DNA from: Alloprevotella sp. oral taxon 473 str. F0040
Lineage (GTDB): Bacteria; Bacteroidota; Bacteroidia; Bacteroidales; Bacteroidaceae
Assembly: GCF_000318095.2 (NCBI RefSeq)
Contig: NZ_KB290716.1
Location: forward strand, 204,679 to 264,103
Direction: 5' to 3'
Length of the DNA stretch: 59,425 nt
Numbering within the stretch: position 1 is the stretch's first letter; each line of letters starts with the position of its first letter. Of this stretch, positions 39,241 through 52,294 are shown piece after piece. The notes under the pieces were generated by a model. It was given only the letters and a program-made list of their open reading frames with translations, ran no database searches and had not been told where the DNA came from. Both the position numbers and the translations under genes were made by a program.

Positions 39241-40740
39241 ATGTCTACTCATACTATCTGTGCAGTTTCTACCGCTACGGGTGGGGCTATCGGTGTGGTT
39301 CGTGTGTCAGGGCCACAAGCCATTGCCGCCACAGAGCGCATATTTCGGGCTGCCAACGGCAAACCGCTGAGTGAACGCAAAGCCAGTTCACTCACCTTTG
39401 GTCATATCGTCGATGAAAACGACAAAGTGGTCGATGAAGTCTTGGTGAGCCTTTTCCGCGCGCCCCATTCTTACACGGGAGAAGATGCCACGGAGATTTC
39501 GTGTCACGGCTCTTCCTATATCCTTCAACGCGTGGTGCAGCTGCTCCTTGCCGCAGGTTGTGAAGCAGCCGCCCCAGGTGAGTTCACGCAGCGCGCTTTT
39601 CTCAACGGCAAGATGGACTTGTCGCAAGCGGAAGCCGTTGCAGACGTCATCGCCTCCACCACTGCCGCTAGTCACCAAGTCGCGATGAGCCAAATGCGCG
39701 GTGATTTCAGTAAGCAACTTGGAGTGTTGCGCGAACAATTGGTGCATCTCACCTCGTTGCTCGAACTTGAGTTGGATTTCTCCGACCATGAGGATTTAGA
39801 ATTTGCCGACCGCTCGGCACTCGATGCCATTGCATCGCAAATCGAAAGCGTGACTCAACGTCTTGCCGACTCTTTTGCCACAGGAAATGTGCTGAAAAAC
39901 GGACTTCCCGTTGCCATTGTAGGCAGCACCAATTCGGGAAAATCTACACTCCTCAACGCATTGCTCCACGACGATCGCGCGATTGTGAGCGATGTACACG
40001 GAACTACGCGCGATGTCATCGAAGATACCTTCACGCTCGGTGGCACGCTCTTCCGATTTATCGACACAGCAGGCCTCCGCTCCACGGATGATGTGGTGGA
40101 ACAAATGGGCATTGCACGCAGCCGTCAAAAGTTGGAAGAGGCTAAAATTGTGCTTTTCGTAGTGGATTCTACGCAAGTGGCTTCGCAGATGGAGGCACTC
40201 GGCACGGAGATTCTCGAAGCGATGAATGGCCGTCCGCTCGTGGTACTTTTCAATAAGTCTGATTTGATTGAGGAACAAGCCATGAACGAGTTGCTCGCTC
40301 AACCACTGAAACATTGGATTTCCAGTACTTCTCTCTGTGAAAATGCCGAAACCACAGGGGATTCCGCCGACCTTCCCTCCAACGCACAAGCCGTGACGCT
40401 CCCTTCACAACAAGGGCAACAGGTCGTAAAATTGGCAATCAGTGCGAAAAATGCCATCGGATTGGATGCCCTCACCGACACCCTCGTCCGTTTGGCACAA
40501 GAAAACACCACTTCTGCTGGTGACATCATCGTGACCAATGCCCGTCACTATGCTGCACTCACCGCAGCTCTTGCCGACATTCGCCGCGTGCGCCAAGGAC
40601 TTTCCACCCACCTCTCTGGTGACTTTGTGGCACAAGATCTCCGTGAGTGTCTCTTCCATCTCGCCGAAATCACTGGCGGTGCTGTCACCACCGACGAGGT
40701 GCTAGGTACCATCTTCAAAAACTTCTGCGTGGGCAAATGA
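39241..40740 (+). CDS. mnmE: tRNA modification GTPase MnmE
   Basis: A 499-residue GTPase that with MnmG adds carboxymethylaminomethyl (or aminomethyl) to U34 of tRNAs. The N-terminal folate-binding domain has APGEFTQRAFLNGKMDLSQA. The G domain shows P-loop GSTNSGKSTLLNAL, GTTRD switch, DTAGLR and NKSD. The C-terminus ends FCVGK, carrying the catalytic Cys of the C-x-GK motif. Between NKSD and SAKN the G domain has about 30 extra residues rich in Ser/Asn/Gln (ENAETTGDSADLPSNAQ). Start follows directly on a heptamer repeat array. Confidence 0.97.
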   Translation: MSTHTICAVSTATGGAIGVVRVSGPQAIAATERIFRAANGKPLSERKASSLTFGHIVDENDKVVDEVLVSLFRAPHSYTGEDATEISCHGSSYILQRVVQLLLAAGCEAAAPGEFTQRAFLNGKMDLSQAEAVADVIASTTAASHQVAMSQMRGDFSKQLGVLREQLVHLTSLLELELDFSDHEDLEFADRSALDAIASQIESVTQRLADSFATGNVLKNGLPVAIVGSTNSGKSTLLNALLHDDRAIVSDVHGTTRDVIEDTFTLGGTLFRFIDTAGLRSTDDVVEQMGIARSRQKLEEAKIVLFVVDSTQVASQMEALGTEILEAMNGRPLVVLFNKSDLIEEQAMNELLAQPLKHWISSTSLCENAETTGDSADLPSNAQAVTLPSQQGQQVVKLAISAKNAIGLDALTDTLVRLAQENTTSAGDIIVTNARHYAALTAALADIRRVRQGLSTHLSGDFVAQDLRECLFHLAEITGGAVTTDEVLGTIFKNFCVGK

Positions 40741-41729: not shown

Positions 41730-43643
41730 TTACAACCCCATCCTTGTCAATATTTTATCCCTTCTGATGGTGATTGCTTGCCTAGCCCCTCCTTTTTTAA
41801 TTAGGCTTACAATATCGTAATCTTGATGAGCCTTAACAGTGTTCTTATTAATGTTCACCTCGTGGTCATATATCTTCTGTAATGCATCATCTAGGCATTC
41901 ATAGCAAAATTGATCATATATTTGCATTTTGTGGTTCGGAGCGAAAGGCTCCAACGGACTACCATTCTTGAGTCCTGTCATATATATCATCTTGCACCCA
42001 CCTCCTGTAATATGGGAATTCCCTGCTAAATCCTTATATATCCAAATGTTATCCTCTAAAAGTACAGAATAATATGCTTGATATGAACCATCAGCAGTCT
42101 TGTACTCTATATCTAACTGATTTCCTCGTGCTGTTAACAGATTACATCTTTGCGCTAAGCTTTCAATCTGTATCTTTAATCCAGAAATAGCCTCTTCCAC
42201 CTCTACTAATTCATTTCGATAGATTTGTACCTCTTCCTCATAATGAGATAGTGGATGGATTAAGGAATGAAGATATGATTCTAAGAAAGAGATATTCTTC
42301 GTACACTCCTCTATCTTTGAGAAAAAGATCTTTACAGCCTTTACTCGCTGTGTCAACTTAAAACCTGGCACAATCGTATAATCATCATTCATAAATAACT
42401 CTTTAGGTAGACGAGAAAGCAACTCCTCAAGTGCTTTCCTGAAATAGTTTGCCGAAGCAGGTAGGTCTATATCCCTGTGACCATGTAAGTATTCTTTGGC
42501 ACGGTCCAAAGATGAGACTCCATCAACCATAACCGGTACGGAGAAAGACTTACCGTCTTCTTTCTTTATCACAGAAAATAGATTAGTATACTTCCATCTA
42601 CCTTTGGCGTGTGCTTCAAGATAATTTTTTGCCATATGATACCATGAACGATCATAAGTAGCTATTACTATCTGGAAGTGCTTGAACTCGTTATTAAGTA
42701 TTTCCAATATAGGTTTCCGATTGACCGAGTCTATGCCTATGAAGATATCATCTAGAAACATGAAGTGCAATTCTTTACCAGGAGTTGCCTGCAGAGCTGC
42801 CAAGTATAGACAGATAGCAATAGCGGAAAGTCTAGCCTCGTTCAACCCTTCTGCATAGTTGTCAATATGAATATTATCTAAATCTATATTCAATCGTAAA
42901 TCTTGCTGGATAGCCCATTCCCGCTTATTATTCCCATACGAGAATTTCATAGGCTTTAGATCAAAGCTTATCGCCAATCTAAAGTAAGGAAAGTAGCTTT
43001 GCAGATAGTAATTCACTTGAGTAAATAAATTATCAAGGACTGATCTTAACACTTTCTCAAAACTAAGAAGGTCTTTCTTACCTTTTTTGTGTTTATTCTC
43101 CTGTCTATTGTGAACCTCAAAAATATCTTTTTTGATCGATTTCCATTCCTTTGCCAACGGACTGTTTCTTCCCTGTCCTACAGGTATATGATTACCAAGT
43201 AGTTGTGTAATAAAAAAATGAAATAGATTAGGACTCCCTTCATCATACAGATAAACTTTTAGCAGGTCTCGATAGCTCAGAAACCCCTTGGTAAGAGCCA
43301 AGGCTTTAAGGTATCCAGTATTTTGAATATTTGTATTATCAATCCCACACCCAAATTTATGCTCCTCTATTTGAGAGAATTGTCTTGTAGATTCATCAAA
43401 GTCTCCAATACTTAGGACAATCTCTCCAGTCGCTCCAGCAGGCTTGTGCCTGTTGCTAACGTATAGAACAGAAGAACGAAAACTATGGATAAAATCACTC
43501 AAGGATTTGAATAGTGAACTCTTGCCGCTCCCATTTTCTCCATATAGAAGAAGATTCTCTCCATTCTCAAAGGAAAATGTCAGCCGATCGTAATAGGCTC
43601 GAGAATTTTCTATTTCAATTTGCTTTATTCTCTTCATATACAT
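41730..43643 (-). CDS. SMC/RecF-like ATPase partner of the DUF262 protein
   Basis: A 637-residue protein of ABC-type ATPase fold. It opens MKRIKQIEIENSRAYYDRL with Walker A GENGSGKSS at residues 35-43. A signature-like LNEARLSAIA (267-276), Walker B LHFMFLDDIF (292-301) and D-loop GIDSVNR follow. The usual H-loop His is replaced (IVIATYDRSW). Residues about 470-520 look coiled-coil, and a C-terminal region of about 120 residues is unrecognised. Its start overlaps the end of the DUF262 gene by 29 bp, so the two are co-translated. RecF/OLD-like ATPases of this size are common in phage defence. No HNH or TOPRIM domain was seen. Confidence 0.8.
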   Translation of the reverse strand: MYMKRIKQIEIENSRAYYDRLTFSFENGENLLLYGENGSGKSSLFKSLSDFIHSFRSSVLYVSNRHKPAGATGEIVLSIGDFDESTRQFSQIEEHKFGCGIDNTNIQNTGYLKALALTKGFLSYRDLLKVYLYDEGSPNLFHFFITQLLGNHIPVGQGRNSPLAKEWKSIKKDIFEVHNRQENKHKKGKKDLLSFEKVLRSVLDNLFTQVNYYLQSYFPYFRLAISFDLKPMKFSYGNNKREWAIQQDLRLNIDLDNIHIDNYAEGLNEARLSAIAICLYLAALQATPGKELHFMFLDDIFIGIDSVNRKPILEILNNEFKHFQIVIATYDRSWYHMAKNYLEAHAKGRWKYTNLFSVIKKEDGKSFSVPVMVDGVSSLDRAKEYLHGHRDIDLPASANYFRKALEELLSRLPKELFMNDDYTIVPGFKLTQRVKAVKIFFSKIEECTKNISFLESYLHSLIHPLSHYEEEVQIYRNELVEVEEAISGLKIQIESLAQRCNLLTARGNQLDIEYKTADGSYQAYYSVLLEDNIWIYKDLAGNSHITGGGCKMIYMTGLKNGSPLEPFAPNHKMQIYDQFCYECLDDALQKIYDHEVNINKNTVKAHQDYDIVSLIKKGGARQAITIRRDKILTRMGL

Positions 43644-46530
43644 TATAAGAATCTATTATACCTGTAGCAGCGGATAGTTCTGCATAAACGCCATCTTTAT
43701 CAGAGATAATAGCATAATAAACACTCTTTATCTGCTCATACTGCTGTGACGGCTCTAGATTTGTCAAGTCTATCAACTCTTTATCTATGCCTAATAGAGA
43801 AACATCATAGAACTCAAATAACTTACGGAGATATACTTCTTCCACCATTTTGTCTACCATATTTGTAAAAAAACTTCGATGTATATACTCTTGTGCTTGG
43901 GTATAGGGCATAATTTTATCAAACGTCTTCTGGAGCTTTAGTGGTAGTATCGGAATCTTGATAAGTTTAAGAATGCTAGTGGTCAGATTTCTCTTGGCTA
44001 GGTCGTGCTCCCGGAATACATAACTACTCTGTAATATTGCAGCAAGATATCCATTAGTAAACCCTTTTCTCTTAATTTTTAGTCCGATATAATTTTCATT
44101 CTTCTCGGGTTTATTAAAGAGAACTTCTAGCCTATTCTCGATTTTATTATCTCTTTTTATATAGATATCGCAGAGAACCTCCTCTTCTAATTTCTCAGAA
44201 GTAAGATAGTATAGTGTGGTGATGTCTCCAATTTTCCCCCACAGTCTCGTATTATTTCCGGTGTTCTCATATTCATGTCGGAACGCTTCAACCTTCTGCT
44301 TAAACTCATTAATACTGATATCTGATGACATTCTTTCGAACAGCCATCTAACTTCTTTTCGGACCTTTTCCTGATTCTCCTTTAGGCTATTCCGATTAAG
44401 GTTCTTCAAGAAATACCAAAGAGCATAGAAACTTTGCTGAGTACGCTTATTATTTTCTGCTCCAAGCATCTCATCCAAGTTTCTAGTTAGTACTTTATCG
44501 CTGTCATCATCTCTATTAGCTAATAGAACCCTCAGATTGCTGATAAATGAAAATTCGAAATTATTCACTGCCTCAATAAAGTCATCTTTCTTCTCTACAT
44601 TTTCTAAAATTTTGGATATCTCTCCTTTTGAACGTAAACGAAAAGCTATGCGAGAGCCCACTTTATAGATATCAAGTGGACCTTTGTCTATAGCGTCTTG
44701 CTGATTTCCCTCAAGGTAAGAAAAGTATGAGAGTACAGTATAATTGTTCTCATTCTCCATGCGGTTACTCGTTTTCCGCATGAAGAACCAGTTTGAGCAG
44801 TTATTGTAAGATGACTTAATTGTATCTATTATCCCCCGATCTAGATATGAGTTCCACATTTCAAAAGTATCAGACTTTATAGGATAAGGCTTATTATTCA
44901 AACGAATAAACAGATCTAAAGGATCAAATTCAGGATTGTTTCTTTGGCTAATTTCTATGACCCACAAATCAAAACTTGTTATCTTTTCTTGCATATCCTC
45001 AGCTAATTGACTGAAATGTTTTCCCTGAAGATTGGTAAGAATACTATCTTTTAATTGGAGGGAAAAGCCATCTTTCTTCGACTTTGTGTCCTCTCCCATC
45101 TCATTCATATAGCCCCTTCCTAAGAAAGCAAGAATAGATAGAATACGCTGTTGACCATCGATTACCTCCGAAATTCCATTTTCTTTTTTGAATATGAAAA
45201 TAGGAGGTAATTTAATACCCAATAATAGACTTTCTATGATTTCCGATGATTTTTTCTTGTTTATAACCTCTTCACGCTGATAGGGTGGACGAACCAAGAA
45301 ACGTTGTCGTTTCATTAAACGACAGATGTCGTCAATTGTATATGTTGTCGGCTCAGGTTTATTGATGCGTAATTCTTGGTAGTTTGTGGTCGTGGTCTCC
45401 TTACCTTGACTCAACTCACGATTCTTCTGTTTAAATGTGTTGTCTGTTTCAATGTATAACTCCCTGTTAATATTATATACATCATCCAAATAATCAGCTA
45501 TGATTCCATAGCGATTCGTTATCTGACTGTAGAATGAACTTCGATCCATCTCAAATGCATTGATATTTTCCACTATATGCATAGAGATTTTTTTTAAATC
45601 AGAAGAATTCTTCTTTGGTAAGCTGATATCGTTATTTTCCAAAATTGACAATGCCCAAAACATTACTTCGGATATTAGACGATTATAGGAGATTCCTTCT
45701 CTACTTACCATCTTCTTTAGCTCATCTAATAACTCCAGCTTTCTCTTGAATGAGTCAAATAGTTCTTCAAATTCTTCATTCGTAATTTGAGCAGACAATA
45801 AGTCATAGTATTTGTCTGTAATCCTCTGTTTAGCAATTGAATAGTACTTGATTGGAATTTGATGAATAACCAACAATTGACGAATCTTTTGCAACGACAA
45901 CTCTACCTTCTTGTCTTCATACTTAAAAAGTCTGTCAAATTGCTCTTGAAAGTCCTTGTCTTGGAACTTTTCTCTGAAAAAGCTATTTAGATCGTCATCA
46001 AAATATATCGCTTGATCTATCTCGATGCTCTTCAGAGGTGTGATCCCCGAATTATAGCGTTTGAAAATTTCCTGTTTTACGGAATCCTCTTCCACTTGCG
46101 TGATGCCATCGAAAGATGCAAAACTAAACTCTATTATTCGGAGCTTAGTATCCCAAAAATCATTTTTTAATTCAGTAGGGAGTGACTCGAAGGTCTTTTT
46201 GTAAATTTTTAAGCCATCCAATTTCTTTAGACCAGACTTACTAAGCCGAAGCTCACCTCGCAAAAACCTCAAAATTGTTTCATAGCGCTGCCTGCCATCA
46301 ATGATTTCCAAACTTCCTCTACTACGAAAAAATATAAGTGGAGGGATTTCAGTTCCTATTAGTATACTTTCTATGAAGTAGGTGGCTTTTTCTCCATCCC
46401 ACACATAGTTACGCTGATAAGGAGGTGCATACTGAGTCTTTTTCACCTTTCCATCATCAAATAAACTGTCTATAGTAACAACTTTAGACTCAATCTTTAG
46501 TTTGTCTACAAATATTTCTCTTAGATTCAT
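43615..46530 (-). CDS. Protein with two DUF262 (ParB-like NTPase) domains
   Basis: A 971-residue protein with tandem DUF262 domains. The first has APPYQR (35-40) and IDGRQR (77-82); the second has PPYQR (415-419) and IDGQQR (457-462). In GmrSD and related enzymes this motif set hydrolyses NTP and senses modified DNA. No DUF1524 HNH motif (H..P) is visible in the C-terminal 400 residues, so it lacks the usual nuclease half. The next gene supplies an ATPase and overlaps by 29 bp. A small HTH gene lies 89 bp upstream. AT-rich. Function likely defence, but the effector activity is unidentified. Confidence 0.82.
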   Translation of the reverse strand: MNLREIFVDKLKIESKVVTIDSLFDDGKVKKTQYAPPYQRNYVWDGEKATYFIESILIGTEIPPLIFFRSRGSLEIIDGRQRYETILRFLRGELRLSKSGLKKLDGLKIYKKTFESLPTELKNDFWDTKLRIIEFSFASFDGITQVEEDSVKQEIFKRYNSGITPLKSIEIDQAIYFDDDLNSFFREKFQDKDFQEQFDRLFKYEDKKVELSLQKIRQLLVIHQIPIKYYSIAKQRITDKYYDLLSAQITNEEFEELFDSFKRKLELLDELKKMVSREGISYNRLISEVMFWALSILENNDISLPKKNSSDLKKISMHIVENINAFEMDRSSFYSQITNRYGIIADYLDDVYNINRELYIETDNTFKQKNRELSQGKETTTTNYQELRINKPEPTTYTIDDICRLMKRQRFLVRPPYQREEVINKKKSSEIIESLLLGIKLPPIFIFKKENGISEVIDGQQRILSILAFLGRGYMNEMGEDTKSKKDGFSLQLKDSILTNLQGKHFSQLAEDMQEKITSFDLWVIEISQRNNPEFDPLDLFIRLNNKPYPIKSDTFEMWNSYLDRGIIDTIKSSYNNCSNWFFMRKTSNRMENENNYTVLSYFSYLEGNQQDAIDKGPLDIYKVGSRIAFRLRSKGEISKILENVEKKDDFIEAVNNFEFSFISNLRVLLANRDDDSDKVLTRNLDEMLGAENNKRTQQSFYALWYFLKNLNRNSLKENQEKVRKEVRWLFERMSSDISINEFKQKVEAFRHEYENTGNNTRLWGKIGDITTLYYLTSEKLEEEVLCDIYIKRDNKIENRLEVLFNKPEKNENYIGLKIKRKGFTNGYLAAILQSSYVFREHDLAKRNLTTSILKLIKIPILPLKLQKTFDKIMPYTQAQEYIHRSFFTNMVDKMVEEVYLRKLFEFYDVSLLGIDKELIDLTNLEPSQQYEQIKSVYYAIISDKDGVYAELSAATGIIDSYNVYEENKAN

Positions 46531-47036: not shown

Positions 47037-49004
47037 TTATGCCTCCATATTCTCAACAATTTTGGATCCAATTCTGAGCTCATCTTCAATTTTGAGCAGA
47101 AACAGAATCAGTAGCATAAGAAAGATGTAATAGTTCTTGGTATGGATTTGTACATTGTCACCCACAGGTATTGCTCCATGTGCATATTGGTTCCGGATAG
47201 CAGGGCCATTGGTGTATTTCTCATTATTGAGATAGTAAGAAAACAGATTACGCTCAGATTCACAAAATAGATGATCGTCAATCTCTAACAAATCTTCGTC
47301 TTTCCATTTGTCTAGCATTTCACGAACAGACTTGTCATGATGCCAATACGACACTATACGATTGCGCCAAAGACAACCTAGTATTTCAATTGCAGATTTG
47401 TTGTCTGGTCTTAGTATCCCTTGCTCATCGATCTTGATGTATCCTCCGGTAATCAATTTATCTATCATATTCTTACGGTAATCCTTATAAACAGAATAAG
47501 GGACTTCACAACTTGTGATAAAATCATAGAAGTTATGAATCCTTGTAGTATCAACCTCTTCAACAACATGAAGGATTTTTGCTGTTTGGAACAAAAGCCT
47601 CATCGGTTCTAAAATTTCCTTAGAATGTCCCTTAATCACATAATACTTATTGCAGAAAAGGCTTTTAGTCTCTGTTATCAGCAACGGTTTCTCAAATGAA
47701 AATAGTCTAGGCTCTATATCTCCCTCTTCTACAAACAAATTGTATTGCTTTGAAACCGAATCCAACTCGGGCATTATAGTTCGACATTTAGCCACCCAAT
47801 CGACATCTTCTGCTGGCAATGTTAATTGTAAAGTTGGATAGCCATAGTCTTCCTTAAAATGTTTCTCATAGAAGTTTTTCACCAAGGATTCCAATCTTTT
47901 TCCTATTGTGGGAAGCATTATCGAATAGAGGTTTATATTGGCTAGTGCAAGATTATTCCTAATCTGACAACTTTGATTCATGAAATAGGCATCTTTTCCA
48001 TGGCCCATAAAAGCCCATTCCAAACTACTTGTTTCAGAATCTTTATTGACAAGATCTATCAGACAATCCTCACCTATCAGATTAAAAAGATATCCAAAAA
48101 CGTGAATCATCTCCACTTCATTCAAGCTCTCTATGTATTTCAAACTATGAACTTGTATAAACCCATCTTCTCGTTGCTCTATTCTGGTTGGTGGAATATT
48201 ATCACTTTTATCATACTCTACACCATAATCAAAATGAATCACATTTGCCTTTTCAAAGAACTTTTCATTCAATTGCTTTTCCACATCTTGTGCAAGAAGT
48301 CTTGTCTTTGGAGTAAGAATCATCTGATTAGCATTGTCCTTTACTTGCATCACCAGCCTCACGTAGTTGAGGTTTGGCTCGCTCTGGTTCAAGAAATCTA
48401 CAATAATCTGCTCCTTGTCTGCAGATGTCAATGATGACGGGAAGAAGTACGTCCTATTATTATCATTTAAGCTACTGCGTGCATATTGGTCCAAGAGGAT
48501 ATGAGCAGATAGACTATTACTCATCATCTTGCTCTTGAGATATTTCGCGAACTTATTTACGATCCGTTCCTGTTGCAGAATCAGACGCAAATTTCCATCT
48601 TCAGTAAGGACCTTGTCCAAAAAAGACTCATCAAGCAAACCTAAAAGATTATAATTGGCGACCACCTCCCAGAATGATTCTTTATAGCTCCAGTCTATCG
48701 ACTGGTAATAATCATATAGTGTATCTTTGGGTATAGCTCGTAGATATTTCACAATAATCCCTGAGAAACTCTTGACCCTTGATTTCAGACTATCAATATA
48801 ATCCTCTTTCCAAGTTGATAGATGGTTGTCACGATCTATATGTTTTTTGATGTGATAGAGTTCCAGAACATCATTGATATCCTTGACGAATTTTGAGGTA
48901 TCAAAATTCATCAATAGGTCCTCTATTTGCTGTAAACTCCAACCTATGCTCAAATCATGTTGGGAATAGTATTGTACTCTATGTCTTTCTATATTTATAT
49001 CCAT
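47037..49004 (-). CDS. Large unknown protein with C-terminal RNxxxHG (DUF4209/HEPN-like) motif
   Basis: A 655-residue protein with no recognised N-terminal domain. Near the C-terminus R604-N-Q-Y-A-H609-G matches the RNxxxHG motif I recall for DUF4209, and also fits the Rx4-6H pattern of HEPN RNases. It is followed by a hydrophobic helix (NYYIFLMLLILFLLKI). The rest is helical, AT-rich and rich in Asn/Lys/Tyr. Its promoter shares a 30-bp block with that of the HTH-DUF262-ATPase unit just downstream, suggesting joint control. If HEPN-like, it could be an RNA-cleaving effector; this is inference only. Confidence 0.7.
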   Translation of the reverse strand: MDINIERHRVQYYSQHDLSIGWSLQQIEDLLMNFDTSKFVKDINDVLELYHIKKHIDRDNHLSTWKEDYIDSLKSRVKSFSGIIVKYLRAIPKDTLYDYYQSIDWSYKESFWEVVANYNLLGLLDESFLDKVLTEDGNLRLILQQERIVNKFAKYLKSKMMSNSLSAHILLDQYARSSLNDNNRTYFFPSSLTSADKEQIIVDFLNQSEPNLNYVRLVMQVKDNANQMILTPKTRLLAQDVEKQLNEKFFEKANVIHFDYGVEYDKSDNIPPTRIEQREDGFIQVHSLKYIESLNEVEMIHVFGYLFNLIGEDCLIDLVNKDSETSSLEWAFMGHGKDAYFMNQSCQIRNNLALANINLYSIMLPTIGKRLESLVKNFYEKHFKEDYGYPTLQLTLPAEDVDWVAKCRTIMPELDSVSKQYNLFVEEGDIEPRLFSFEKPLLITETKSLFCNKYYVIKGHSKEILEPMRLLFQTAKILHVVEEVDTTRIHNFYDFITSCEVPYSVYKDYRKNMIDKLITGGYIKIDEQGILRPDNKSAIEILGCLWRNRIVSYWHHDKSVREMLDKWKDEDLLEIDDHLFCESERNLFSYYLNNEKYTNGPAIRNQYAHGAIPVGDNVQIHTKNYYIFLMLLILFLLKIEDELRIGSKIVENMEA

Positions 49005-49144: not shown

Positions 49145-50404
49145 CTAATGACTTGCCGAAAATTCCCAGCGATCAGCAAAGAGGGCTATTTCTCTCTTGG
49201 TAATTCCCTGTCGAGTAGCCAAGGATAGCCAATCTTTCAGGGCATTACACACTTCCCCAATAATGGTATCGGCAATCTCCTTGCTCAGCATATATTCCTC
49301 TGAAGCATCTCTGAGAAGTGAGAGGTCTGCCTCGTTGGACGTAGAAGTAACCAGTAAACTCTGATGTTTACTTAATGTTGGGTTTATGTCGTAAGCAGGA
49401 GATAGTGTCCAGCCTTTGGGTGTAAGTAAGAATCCGTGATTTCGGAAGTGATCATCACTATTGCCAATGCAGATATTGAAAACAACACGACGATATAGTT
49501 CCCTTAGGTTACTCTCCACATCTGTACAGTGGCGAATGATAAAATCCACAATATCTAAGTAACCGTAACCATTCATGGCATTATCTCCATCATGCAATCC
49601 AAGAAGCGTCATAGCCGAGGCAAAGTGGATACGTTTCCCTTGCTCTGTTCTATCAAAACGCTTGGAGATTAGGGTGTGATGGGTCTCTGATGTTTGTAAT
49701 ACCCTTGTTTCAGCTACAGTAATCCCAGCCCTTTTCGCAAGCAAATGACAAAGATGTTCCCACAATTCCGCATCGTAGTCATCGTTACGAGAGGGGAATT
49801 TAGCAATCCATAGCGCACCATTAACATCGGAAACACTGGCTTTGGGACGTGCCCCTCCAAGAGAAGAACCAGGCTGAACCAATTGTGCTATCCATTTTTT
49901 GCCAGGAAGTTCGTTTCTGTCCTCACTATATTCTAATTCCTTACTGGCTTCTTGCAGTGCACGAATCTCAGTTAGAGGGGGAATCCTTAAAGTGGGGGTG
50001 CAATTGATAAAGTCAGCATCTGCACTTTCTTTAAAACGGAAACCTCCCATTCGGGAATAATCATCAATCCCCAAGAGGTAATCAAAGGAGGTAAGACGAC
50101 GAAGAGGGCGTTTCTCCTCTTGTGCTAAAATCTGCTCTCTGCGATTAAGTAGTGTTCGCCCCCATCTATCGGGCAATGCATCCGAAAAGCATCCAAAAAT
50201 ATCACCACCTCCTGTTGTATATTGTACGCCCGAGTAATTGTTAAGATCTGCACTTAGGAATAATCCTCCCTGTGTTCGTAGCCATTCTTCATTGAGGCAG
50301 AAGCCATAGCTGTCTGTCCCCCGCAGAGACTCGTAGCTCAATTCCCCAACAAGTGTCGGTTCTTTCAGCCAATAAAAATCAGCATATACAAGTAGTTTCT
50401 GCAT
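49145..50404 (-). CDS. hipA: HipA-type serine/threonine kinase toxin
   Basis: A 419-residue full-length HipA. The P-loop-like GSSLGGARPKAS (179-190) contains the Ser region autophosphorylated in E. coli HipA. Kinase motifs LISKRFDR (245-252), catalytic NICIGNSDDHFRNHG (310-324) and metal-binding SPAYDIN (335-341) are intact. HipA phosphorylates an aminoacyl-tRNA synthetase and halts growth; HipB neutralises it. It begins three bases after the hipB stop, so the pair is translationally coupled. Likely active. Confidence 0.92.
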   Translation of the reverse strand: MQKLLVYADFYWLKEPTLVGELSYESLRGTDSYGFCLNEEWLRTQGGLFLSADLNNYSGVQYTTGGGDIFGCFSDALPDRWGRTLLNRREQILAQEEKRPLRRLTSFDYLLGIDDYSRMGGFRFKESADADFINCTPTLRIPPLTEIRALQEASKELEYSEDRNELPGKKWIAQLVQPGSSLGGARPKASVSDVNGALWIAKFPSRNDDYDAELWEHLCHLLAKRAGITVAETRVLQTSETHHTLISKRFDRTEQGKRIHFASAMTLLGLHDGDNAMNGYGYLDIVDFIIRHCTDVESNLRELYRRVVFNICIGNSDDHFRNHGFLLTPKGWTLSPAYDINPTLSKHQSLLVTSTSNEADLSLLRDASEEYMLSKEIADTIIGEVCNALKDWLSLATRQGITKREIALFADRWEFSASH

Positions 50405-50407
50405 AGT

Positions 50408-50728
50408 TTATTCTTTCTTGGAGGCACGGCGGCGATTGATGAGAGAAAGGTCTTGGAGGCGCCGTCCCAGTTCATCGTCTTTAGCAAGGTGGAGAATGTC
50501 GTCCTCAAGTTGAAGGGCATAGAGTACTCGCAAGTAAATTCCGATTGACACAGTAGGGACTCCCTTCTCCACACGAGAGACAGTCAAAGGGGAACAAGTA
50601 GCACGCTCAGCAATCTGTGCCAAACTAAGATTACGACGCAGTCGGGCTAACTTGATTTGCTCTCCTACAATCTGCATCTTCTGCTCTAATTTTCGGGGCA
50701 ACTTAGTCCCCATTGTATTCTTTGCCAT
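50408..50728 (-). CDS. hipB: HipB-type antitoxin, HTH repressor
   Basis: A 106-residue XRE-family protein. The helix-turn-helix (IKLARLRRNLSLAQIAERAT, then CSPLTVSRVEKGVP) is in residues about 25-60; the C-terminal tail is basic (NRRRASKKE). As in HipBA it would bind HipA and repress its own promoter, whose -7 box is 25 nt upstream. The start follows a weak leader. This antitoxin differs in sequence from the other HTH protein at 46620. Confidence 0.88.
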   Translation of the reverse strand: MAKNTMGTKLPRKLEQKMQIVGEQIKLARLRRNLSLAQIAERATCSPLTVSRVEKGVPTVSIGIYLRVLYALQLEDDILHLAKDDELGRRLQDLSLINRRRASKKE

Positions 50729-51220: not shown

Positions 51221-52150
51221 TCATTCATTATCCATTGCATCCCAGAAGTCCATGTCCATTTTCATGACTTTAAGCACCTTTTCGGTTTGCAAGCCAAAAC
51301 CATAATCATAAATATATTCTGTCAACTGCTGACCATTTATCAAAATAATGGTAGGTGTTCCATTCAGACTTTCCACAAAGTCTATTGCTCCTTTACTGAA
51401 GTCCGAGGTAGTAATGAACACTCCTTTCTTAGAGGGTGTCCCTGCAACAGCCCCCACAAAACTTTGAACTTCATTACGACCAACCTTATTGTCTAAAGCA
51501 TATCGCTTAGCTTGTATGGAAATATGATTGAAGCCAAATATATCTTCTTTGATAACCCCATCAATACCACCATCATTTGATAGTTTCGTAACGATACCAG
51601 AGTTCTTGACCTCACCACCATATCCCAATGTTTGAAGCAATTGAACCACTAATCGCTCAAACTCTTGTGGCTTTTTACTCAATATTGTCGTTAGAATCTG
51701 AGATTGTATATTCTTCTTTATTCTATCATAGGAATCTAACAAGCCCTCTTCTGGGGTTTGTTCATCTTCTTCCTTCATTTCTGATGAACTGTTGGTTTGC
51801 TTGTGAGATGTAGCCTTCTGCGATCTTCTTGCGCTGACTTTTCCTTTGACAAACTCTATAATTTCCTCATCAGTACATGAAGAAAGCATAGACAACCCTT
51901 TCTCACTGATTTTGTAATCCCCTCTTTGAGGCTTTTCTACAAGCCCTGCAATAAAGAGATAGGATAAAGCCCACAAAATACGGTCTAAGAATATTTCTAT
52001 ATTTCCAGAAGGATGCCTAGCTAGGAGCTCTTCCTCGGTCAACTGAAAGTACTTTGCCAAAGGTTCTCGCAAGTCTTTAGCACGCATTACTTTCCCGTTT
52101 TGCAATTCTTTTAGTACCGGTATTTCTATTTCGTTATATTTAGGTATCAT
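51221..52150 (-). CDS. Mrr-type restriction endonuclease
   Basis: A 309-residue protein from the ATG at 52150, giving MIPKYNEIEIPVLKELQNG, the usual opening of Mrr proteins; an ATG 27 bp upstream is less likely. The N-terminal winged helix (about 1-90, ending GDYKISEKGLSMLSS) binds DNA. The C-terminal Mrr_cat domain has FERLVVQLLQTLGYGG and the D-(x)n-QxK nuclease core GGIDGVIKED with ISIQAKRY. Mrr enzymes cut methylated foreign DNA. An acidic Ser/Glu linker joins the two domains. No modification methylase is nearby, as expected for Mrr. Confidence 0.9.
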   Translation of the reverse strand: MIPKYNEIEIPVLKELQNGKVMRAKDLREPLAKYFQLTEEELLARHPSGNIEIFLDRILWALSYLFIAGLVEKPQRGDYKISEKGLSMLSSCTDEEIIEFVKGKVSARRSQKATSHKQTNSSSEMKEEDEQTPEEGLLDSYDRIKKNIQSQILTTILSKKPQEFERLVVQLLQTLGYGGEVKNSGIVTKLSNDGGIDGVIKEDIFGFNHISIQAKRYALDNKVGRNEVQSFVGAVAGTPSKKGVFITTSDFSKGAIDFVESLNGTPTIILINGQQLTEYIYDYGFGLQTEKVLKVMKMDMDFWDAMDNE

Positions 52151-52294
52151 AGTTAGACTTCTAATATTAAATCTCAATCGGAAAGGGTCGGAATTCTCAT
52201 GAAGAGTACGTTATTCTCCCACTCCTCTGCTCAATGTGTCAAGAAAAATTCGTCCCTGTTGCGTTATTGTCAAATCATAAACGCATTAAATGAA
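52151..52294 (-). other. Leader region of the mrr-like gene
   Basis: About 145 nt between the -7 box and the start codon. AT-rich, no gene; no obvious structure. Confidence 0.4.

Follow-up and report, generated by a model that had tools for sequence, protein, structure and literature searches.

What does a protein with two DUF262 domains and no recognisable HNH nuclease do, and why does its gene run into that of an ABC-type ATPase? The locus raising this question lies in a window of 59,425 nucleotides (the whole stretch of DNA analysed; 204,679 to 264,103 of NZ_KB290716.1, from a genome of 2.55 Mb). It consists of gene A (43615..46530; 971 aa, DUF262-DUF262-TRD-dock, TRD being a target-recognition domain) and gene B (41730..43643; 637 aa, ABC-type ATPase plus a C-terminal helical domain), both of which, with all their features given below, are on the minus strand. 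The two open reading frames overlap by 29 bp, in agreement with the original prediction for this locus, or by 23 bp if the second ATG (MKRI) is the start of B. Our data suggest, with a probability of roughly 0.5, that A-B is a two-gene guard-type immune system in which A would be the sensor and scaffold and B a PrrC/RloC-like HEPN RNase.

Genomic setting and conservation of the A-B pair

The GC content is 0.345-0.389 over 41-49 kb, against about 0.50 across most of the window, and the low-GC stretch containing A-B is flanked on one side by an ORF that we take from its sequence to be mnmE-like (39241-40740) and on the other by a NUDIX/MtaB pair. In an empty-site test at mnmE, covering about 1.5 kb or less beside that gene, NUDIX/mtaB was found in 0 of 21 relatives' loci. 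Adjoining A-B is a 655-aa protein (47037-49004, minus strand) without a clear Pfam family, which is a candidate single-gene defence protein going by its match to the PADLOC profile PDC-S56 (3.4e-155). A HipA-like kinase (49145-50728, minus strand) forms a HipBA-like pair with an upstream HTH gene in the same island, and an Mrr-type modification-dependent restriction enzyme is encoded at 51221-52177 (minus strand; Mrr_N, Mrr_cat; PADLOC mREase_IV 8e-60).

A scan of a genome collection with a five-row A alignment returned 182 confirmed loci, the best 80 of which were analysed with flanks of up to 7 kb, often less. Long C-terminal tails (208-292 aa beyond A residue 746) occur in 24 of these best 80 of 182 loci. 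B is the next gene in all 23 that have downstream sequence, at a distance of -50 to +42 between longest frames, and the remaining long-tail locus ends at a contig edge; the flanks of the other 56 A loci, again up to 7 kb, contain no B. The A-B pair is a real, conserved two-gene unit, which upholds the coupling originally proposed. The nearest named kin in this survey (best 80 of 182 loci) are mostly Bacteroidota. Among 150 genomes, comprising the window's own and its relatives, a near full-length A is present in two, the window's own and G087 (64%; also the source of locus L100), whose B (58%) lies directly behind its A, while G144 has a shorter A with no B beside it. None of the plasmid and phage records covers 80% of A, and three plasmid records match B, none covering 80%.

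Protein A combines two DUF262 domains with a restriction-type tail

As first predicted, A holds two complete DUF262 motif sets. The first DUF262 domain, of ParB/Srx fold (45991..46518; residues ~5-180), contains IDGRQR (46285..46302; residues 77-82) and the second (44881..45354; residues ~393-550) contains IDGQQR (45145..45162; residues 457-462), with D78, G79, R80, Q81 and R82 as well as D458-R462 (DGQQR) invariant across the 24 long-form A sequences, the window counted. Pfam GmrSD_N matches two stretches of A (5.7e-31), with otherwise no notable Pfam family, and the predicted model shows ParB/Srx folds at both DUF262 regions (residues ~5-166 and ~393-549), with no Foldseek match at E <= 0.001. 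The domain arrangement of A and B is unsure, because their predicted models have pTM values of 0.54 and 0.59, respectively.

Neither HNH nor DUF1524 has a Pfam match in A at E <= 1; a hidden copy of either was rejected on this ground, which bears out the earlier statement that A lacks an HNH nuclease. The locus resembles GmrSD, BrxU and SspE in its DUF262 with the IDG[QR]QR motif, but differs in its tandem DUF262, its ATPase partner and its lack of DUF1524, and the nuclease-bearing sisters of A use a Pfam HNH instead; GmrSD was rejected as an identity for A-B on the absence of DUF1524 at that threshold. The original prediction erred in supposing that known DUF262 systems carry DUF1524, since Menshen, Dazbog and PD-T4-2 are DUF262 systems without it, as given in an excerpt of PMC10952713.

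Two parts of A absent from the original prediction lie at its C-terminus, which is a restriction-type TRD (43915..44253; residues ~760-872) followed by a dock of about 85 residues (43618..43875; residues 886-971) common to methyltransferases paired with B-type ATPases. The TRD fold is present in the predicted model of the window's own A, and relatives' A tails match an HsdS profile as well as Pfam TaqI_C (5 of 7 at E <= 1, two over the cut-off). The window's tail has no TaqI_C match; in its clade the TRD is about 66 aa shorter and likewise lacks this match, and sequence-specific DNA reading may therefore be lost there.

An HMM of the A tail matches 18 of 20 genes directly upstream of B-type ATPases (best 1.1e-25; L028 and L095 missed), and hhalign of A tails against the C-ends of those 18 gives E 1.5e-25 with a score of 180, whereas none of 20 shuffles scored above 17.8. 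TaqI_C is found in 19/19 and Eco57I in 16/19 of the partners upstream of B-type ATPases. The dock (E <= 0.01) is present on 19 of the 20 listed methyltransferases paired with B relatives (weakest 0.0013, L091), which do not represent 19 independent cases because L090/L092 and L182/L183/L189 are close kin. It is on 0 of 30 TaqI_C control loci without B, each with about 1.5 kb or less of flank per side; the A-tail HMM, unlike the dock, matches 4 of these 30. This distribution suggests that the dock of A contacts B directly, and that B relatives would dock on RM-type methyltransferases. Pairs of a type IIG-like Eco57I/TaqI_C methyltransferase and a B-type ATPase share with A-B the TRD-dock tail, the ATPase family and, often, a 4-bp overlap, but have a methyltransferase domain where A has two DUF262. 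A methyltransferase followed by a B-type ATPase is also seen on viral-labelled contigs (L090, L091, L092 and L094), and in L092 both are preceded by a Snf2/HKD-type helicase.

By Pfam, A has no methyltransferase or restriction nuclease domain. A-B was rejected as a restriction-modification (RM) system for lack of a methyltransferase, yet these missing domains, like the shortened TRD of the window's clade, might be expected if A-B played no part in defence and were a regulator or the remnant of a restriction system. We regard this as very improbable, since many Bacteroidota, as well as one bin labelled Lachnospiraceae, retain the motifs, and the window copy adjoins Mrr and the HipA/HTH pair. 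Little weight attaches to a further point against it, that profiles of methyltransferases or restriction enzymes are matched by a small number of the 90 neighbours, with at most two members per profile (best 25 of 68).

Protein B joins an ATPase head to a putative RNase domain

B begins with an SMC/Rad50/RecF-type ATPase head (42516..43637; residues 3-376; Pfam SMC_N 2.5e-11), and the VIA rows on the fold of B likewise cover mostly residues 3-376. The head contains a Walker A motif, GENGSGK (43521..43541; residues 35-41), and a Walker B motif, FLDDIF (42741..42758; residues 296-301). The place of the canonical ABC signature, LSGGQ, is taken by LNEARLS (42825..42845; residues 267-273), of which N268 and E269 occur in 44/44 sequences with letters there. 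At the H-loop position, where His is usual, B reads TYD (42651..42659; residues 329-331); the altered H-loop reported earlier is thus genuine, and 30 of 45 B sequences have Tyr here and 15 have His.

The C-terminal domain, which the original prediction called unknown, is likely to be HEPN. Residues 378-499 (42147..42512) are helical in the predicted model, probably HEPN-like, and contain a putative triad of Arg402 (42438..42440), Glu406 (42426..42428) and His467 (42243..42245), each present in 44/44 sequences with letters, the His being preceded by Ser (Ser466) in 41 of 44. The order Arg-X3-Glu...His, kept in 44/44 with letters, is that of PrrC and RloC. In an excerpt of PMC2610378 the RloC triad is given as Arg-X3-Glu-X36-52-His, often with Ser before the His, and Ala mutants are inactive. 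The Glu-to-His spacing is 60 in the window's B and, by alignment count, 55-68 in 40 of 44 family members, with one other at 83 and three at 114-116, values outside the 36-52 published for RloC. A beta-rich C-terminal extension follows in the predicted model (41733..42146; residues 500-637) and is absent from L091, L092 and L095.

Profile homology to HEPN is weak. Pfam gives HEPN (0.021) and DUF4145 (0.035), each weakly and for one member of 17, and the best one-member match is DUF5615 (8.8e-4), ahead of HEPN. A PDB profile search with the HEPN-like part of B gave no HEPN match, and hhalign against HEPN only was weak (E 0.017 and 0.033, probability < 3%), PrrC scoring as weakly against the second reference family (0.049). 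In full-length hhalign, R402 and E406 of B align to the R and E of an AAA_13 reference family (L206, PADLOC PDC-S06) with H467 off its His, whereas against PrrC the SH is aligned and the R/E is not, so the triad homology of B receives partial support. The original statement that no nuclease is visible is probably wrong, given the invariant PrrC/RloC-type Arg-X3-Glu...His.

An SMC/Rad50/RecF-like head coupled to a domain of weak HEPN profile homology would also suit a B that is no nuclease but a DNA clamp or loader driven by ATP, docking on A much as such ATPases would on type IIG-like methyltransferases and leaving A to do the damage through NTP hydrolysis by its DUF262 domains, nicking by the same domains or an unrecognised part. 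Nicking is stated for the ParB/Srx superfamily in an excerpt of PMC12839542. We consider such a clamp doubtful, because Arg402, Glu406 and His467 are the sole polar residues at 28/28 in B 376-499, and because HNH or PIN serves as a dedicated nuclease in the sister systems.

In a guard-type system, B would correspond to PrrC, which works with a type I RM system (EcoprrI), or to RloC. Like them, it has an SMC/Rad50-like ABC ATPase with a C-terminal Arg-X3-Glu...His and a gene adjoining that of an RM-type protein; unlike them, it is 637 aa long with a longer Glu-to-His spacing and a beta-rich extension, and it is paired with a DUF262-TRD protein rather than an active RM enzyme. A PrrC gene (L208, genome G156; PADLOC 2.3e-130) was seen between frames that resemble hsdM and hsdS by eye.

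Proposed mode of action

As a guard-type system, A-B would work as follows. A would be sensor and scaffold: its two ParB-like DUF262 domains would bind NTP and probably respond to DNA that is modified or foreign, or to a nucleotide change, its restriction-enzyme-type TRD would contact DNA, and its last ~85 residues would hold B, whose C-terminal HEPN RNase would stay silent while in the complex. When A met invader DNA, or a phage disturbed the A-B complex, an ATP-driven rearrangement would release the RNase, and the freed B would cut RNA, most likely tRNA, so that growth would stop before phage release. The ribonuclease activity of B and its RNA target, like the antiphage role of A-B and its trigger, are suggested here from sequence features and from the example of PrrC, which an excerpt of PMC3710099 describes as kept inactive by the type I RM system linked to it, and as released once a phage disables that system. 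A carries a methyltransferase-type tail, and the simplest reading is that a guard RNase has been re-attached to an NTP-dependent DNA sensor. This also fits the sister systems, in which an HNH or PIN nuclease goes with the shared core.

Relation to Menshen, MADS and Lamassu

The Menshen genes are NsnA, NsnB and NsnC, while MADS is made up of mad genes and Lamassu includes LmuA and LmuB. PADLOC returned NsnA (9.2e-52, two stretches) and PD-T4-2_A (4e-17) for A, and LmuB (1.5e-14), mad3 (1.8e-14) and NsnB (2.5e-7) for B (best 25 of 60 matches). Judging from these profiles, A-B appears to be related to Menshen, with which it shares a DUF262 protein and an ABC-type ATPase, and the pairing of DUF262 with an ATPase is already known in kind. 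The earlier suggestion of a new system holds only in part: the two-gene unit is unnamed by the PADLOC matches seen, but its pairing is not new (NsnA 9.2e-52).

It could further be argued that A-B is simply a divergent Menshen, A being NsnA and B being NsnB, with a third component that is now missing or is supplied in trans; the NsnA and NsnB matches favour this, as does an excerpt of PMC10952713 in which the Menshen DUF262 gene is accompanied by a predicted OLD nuclease. We find this improbable, hardly more credible than a remnant restriction system. The NsnA profile is 385 aa, whereas A has two DUF262 domains, a TRD and a dock; B matches NsnB weakly, below LmuB and mad3; and the genes after B vary among loci in length and strand. 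Plain Menshen was rejected on the double DUF262, the TRD tail and the lack of an OLD/TOPRIM partner, for which Pfam (E <= 1) gave no match in the pair or in the 655-aa protein beside it.

MADS and Lamassu resemble A-B in that mad3 and LmuB are the best PADLOC profiles of B. Among six window proteins no other mad gene was found, B alone matching mad3 and mad8 (3e-4; best 25 of 60 for B), and none of the five other window proteins, whose match lists are complete, hits LmuA at E <= 1 (best 25 of 60 for B). Tandem DUF262 with a TRD and an ABC ATPase is undescribed among the literature matches listed (titles and abstract starts), a set that does not cover Li et al. 2025, which reportedly deals with domain polymorphism in Menshen, may contain the A-B arrangement and may reduce its novelty.

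The tandem-DUF262 core and its effectors

Sorted by tail, the best 80 of 182 A-like loci comprise 24 long forms, 31 with a tail of 80-89 aa and 25 short forms. The 80-89 aa tails are an HNH in cis (Pfam HNH in 30 of 31), a class first defined with an HMM of its own member sequences and then checked by Pfam. Among the short forms of the same best 80 of 182 loci, 11 are followed by PIN_8 (Pfam 11/11), four are preceded by putAbiC (Pfam 4/4) and two are preceded by kin of the mad2-like protein of L172 (1.7e-5, weak); the remaining eight have no recognised partner, two lying at contig ends and some being fragments. A quick, midpoint-rooted core tree places the B and PIN forms on one side (39 rows, 3 unlabelled; support 100) and the HNH, putAbiC and mad2-like forms on the other (42 rows, 5 unlabelled; support 100). 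B needs two changes on this tree because five PIN rows nest inside its branch. From the effector distribution and the core tree together, the tandem-DUF262 core therefore appears to be a module whose effector is exchanged.

We tentatively extend this, at slightly less than even odds, to a modular immune family in which a sensor of ~750 aa with tandem DUF262 takes interchangeable effectors, the TRD and dock having been transplanted from type IIG-like methyltransferases. If so, the effectors of the ~750-aa core would be a fused HNH, PIN, a putAbiC membrane protein, a mad2-like protein and TRD-dock with ABC-HEPN, and a single sensor core would drive DNA, RNA and membrane effectors, which would account for the action of some DUF262 proteins that lack DUF1524. 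A PrrC-like guard RNase would then answer to an NTP-dependent sensor instead of an RM enzyme, and RNases of the B type would generally use the docking tail as their adaptor; the tail would also mark those PrrC-like guard ATPases that are attached to restriction enzymes.

Several members of the survey deserve separate mention. Single-gene DUF262-DUF262-HNH proteins (L125, L130, L134, L141 and others) occur in Bacillota, Cyanobacteriota, an archaeal bin and others, and are probably a type IV-like nuclease family by their domain content. PIN_8 lies directly behind the tandem DUF262 in L115-L118, L121, L123, L126-L129 and L166. A membrane/coiled-coil protein, putAbiC by Pfam, lies directly before it in L164, L170, L173 and L174, and a putAbiC-like partner, by resemblance only, precedes it in L023 and L036. 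In L172, L136 and, by eye, L037, the preceding partner is a protein of ~460-506 aa; that of L172 has a weak mad2 match and no Pfam match. The tandem DUF262-HNH proteins of L140, L152 and L160 reach 1093-1225 aa by longest frame owing to a long N-terminal part, which in L160 contains Cys-rich repeats.
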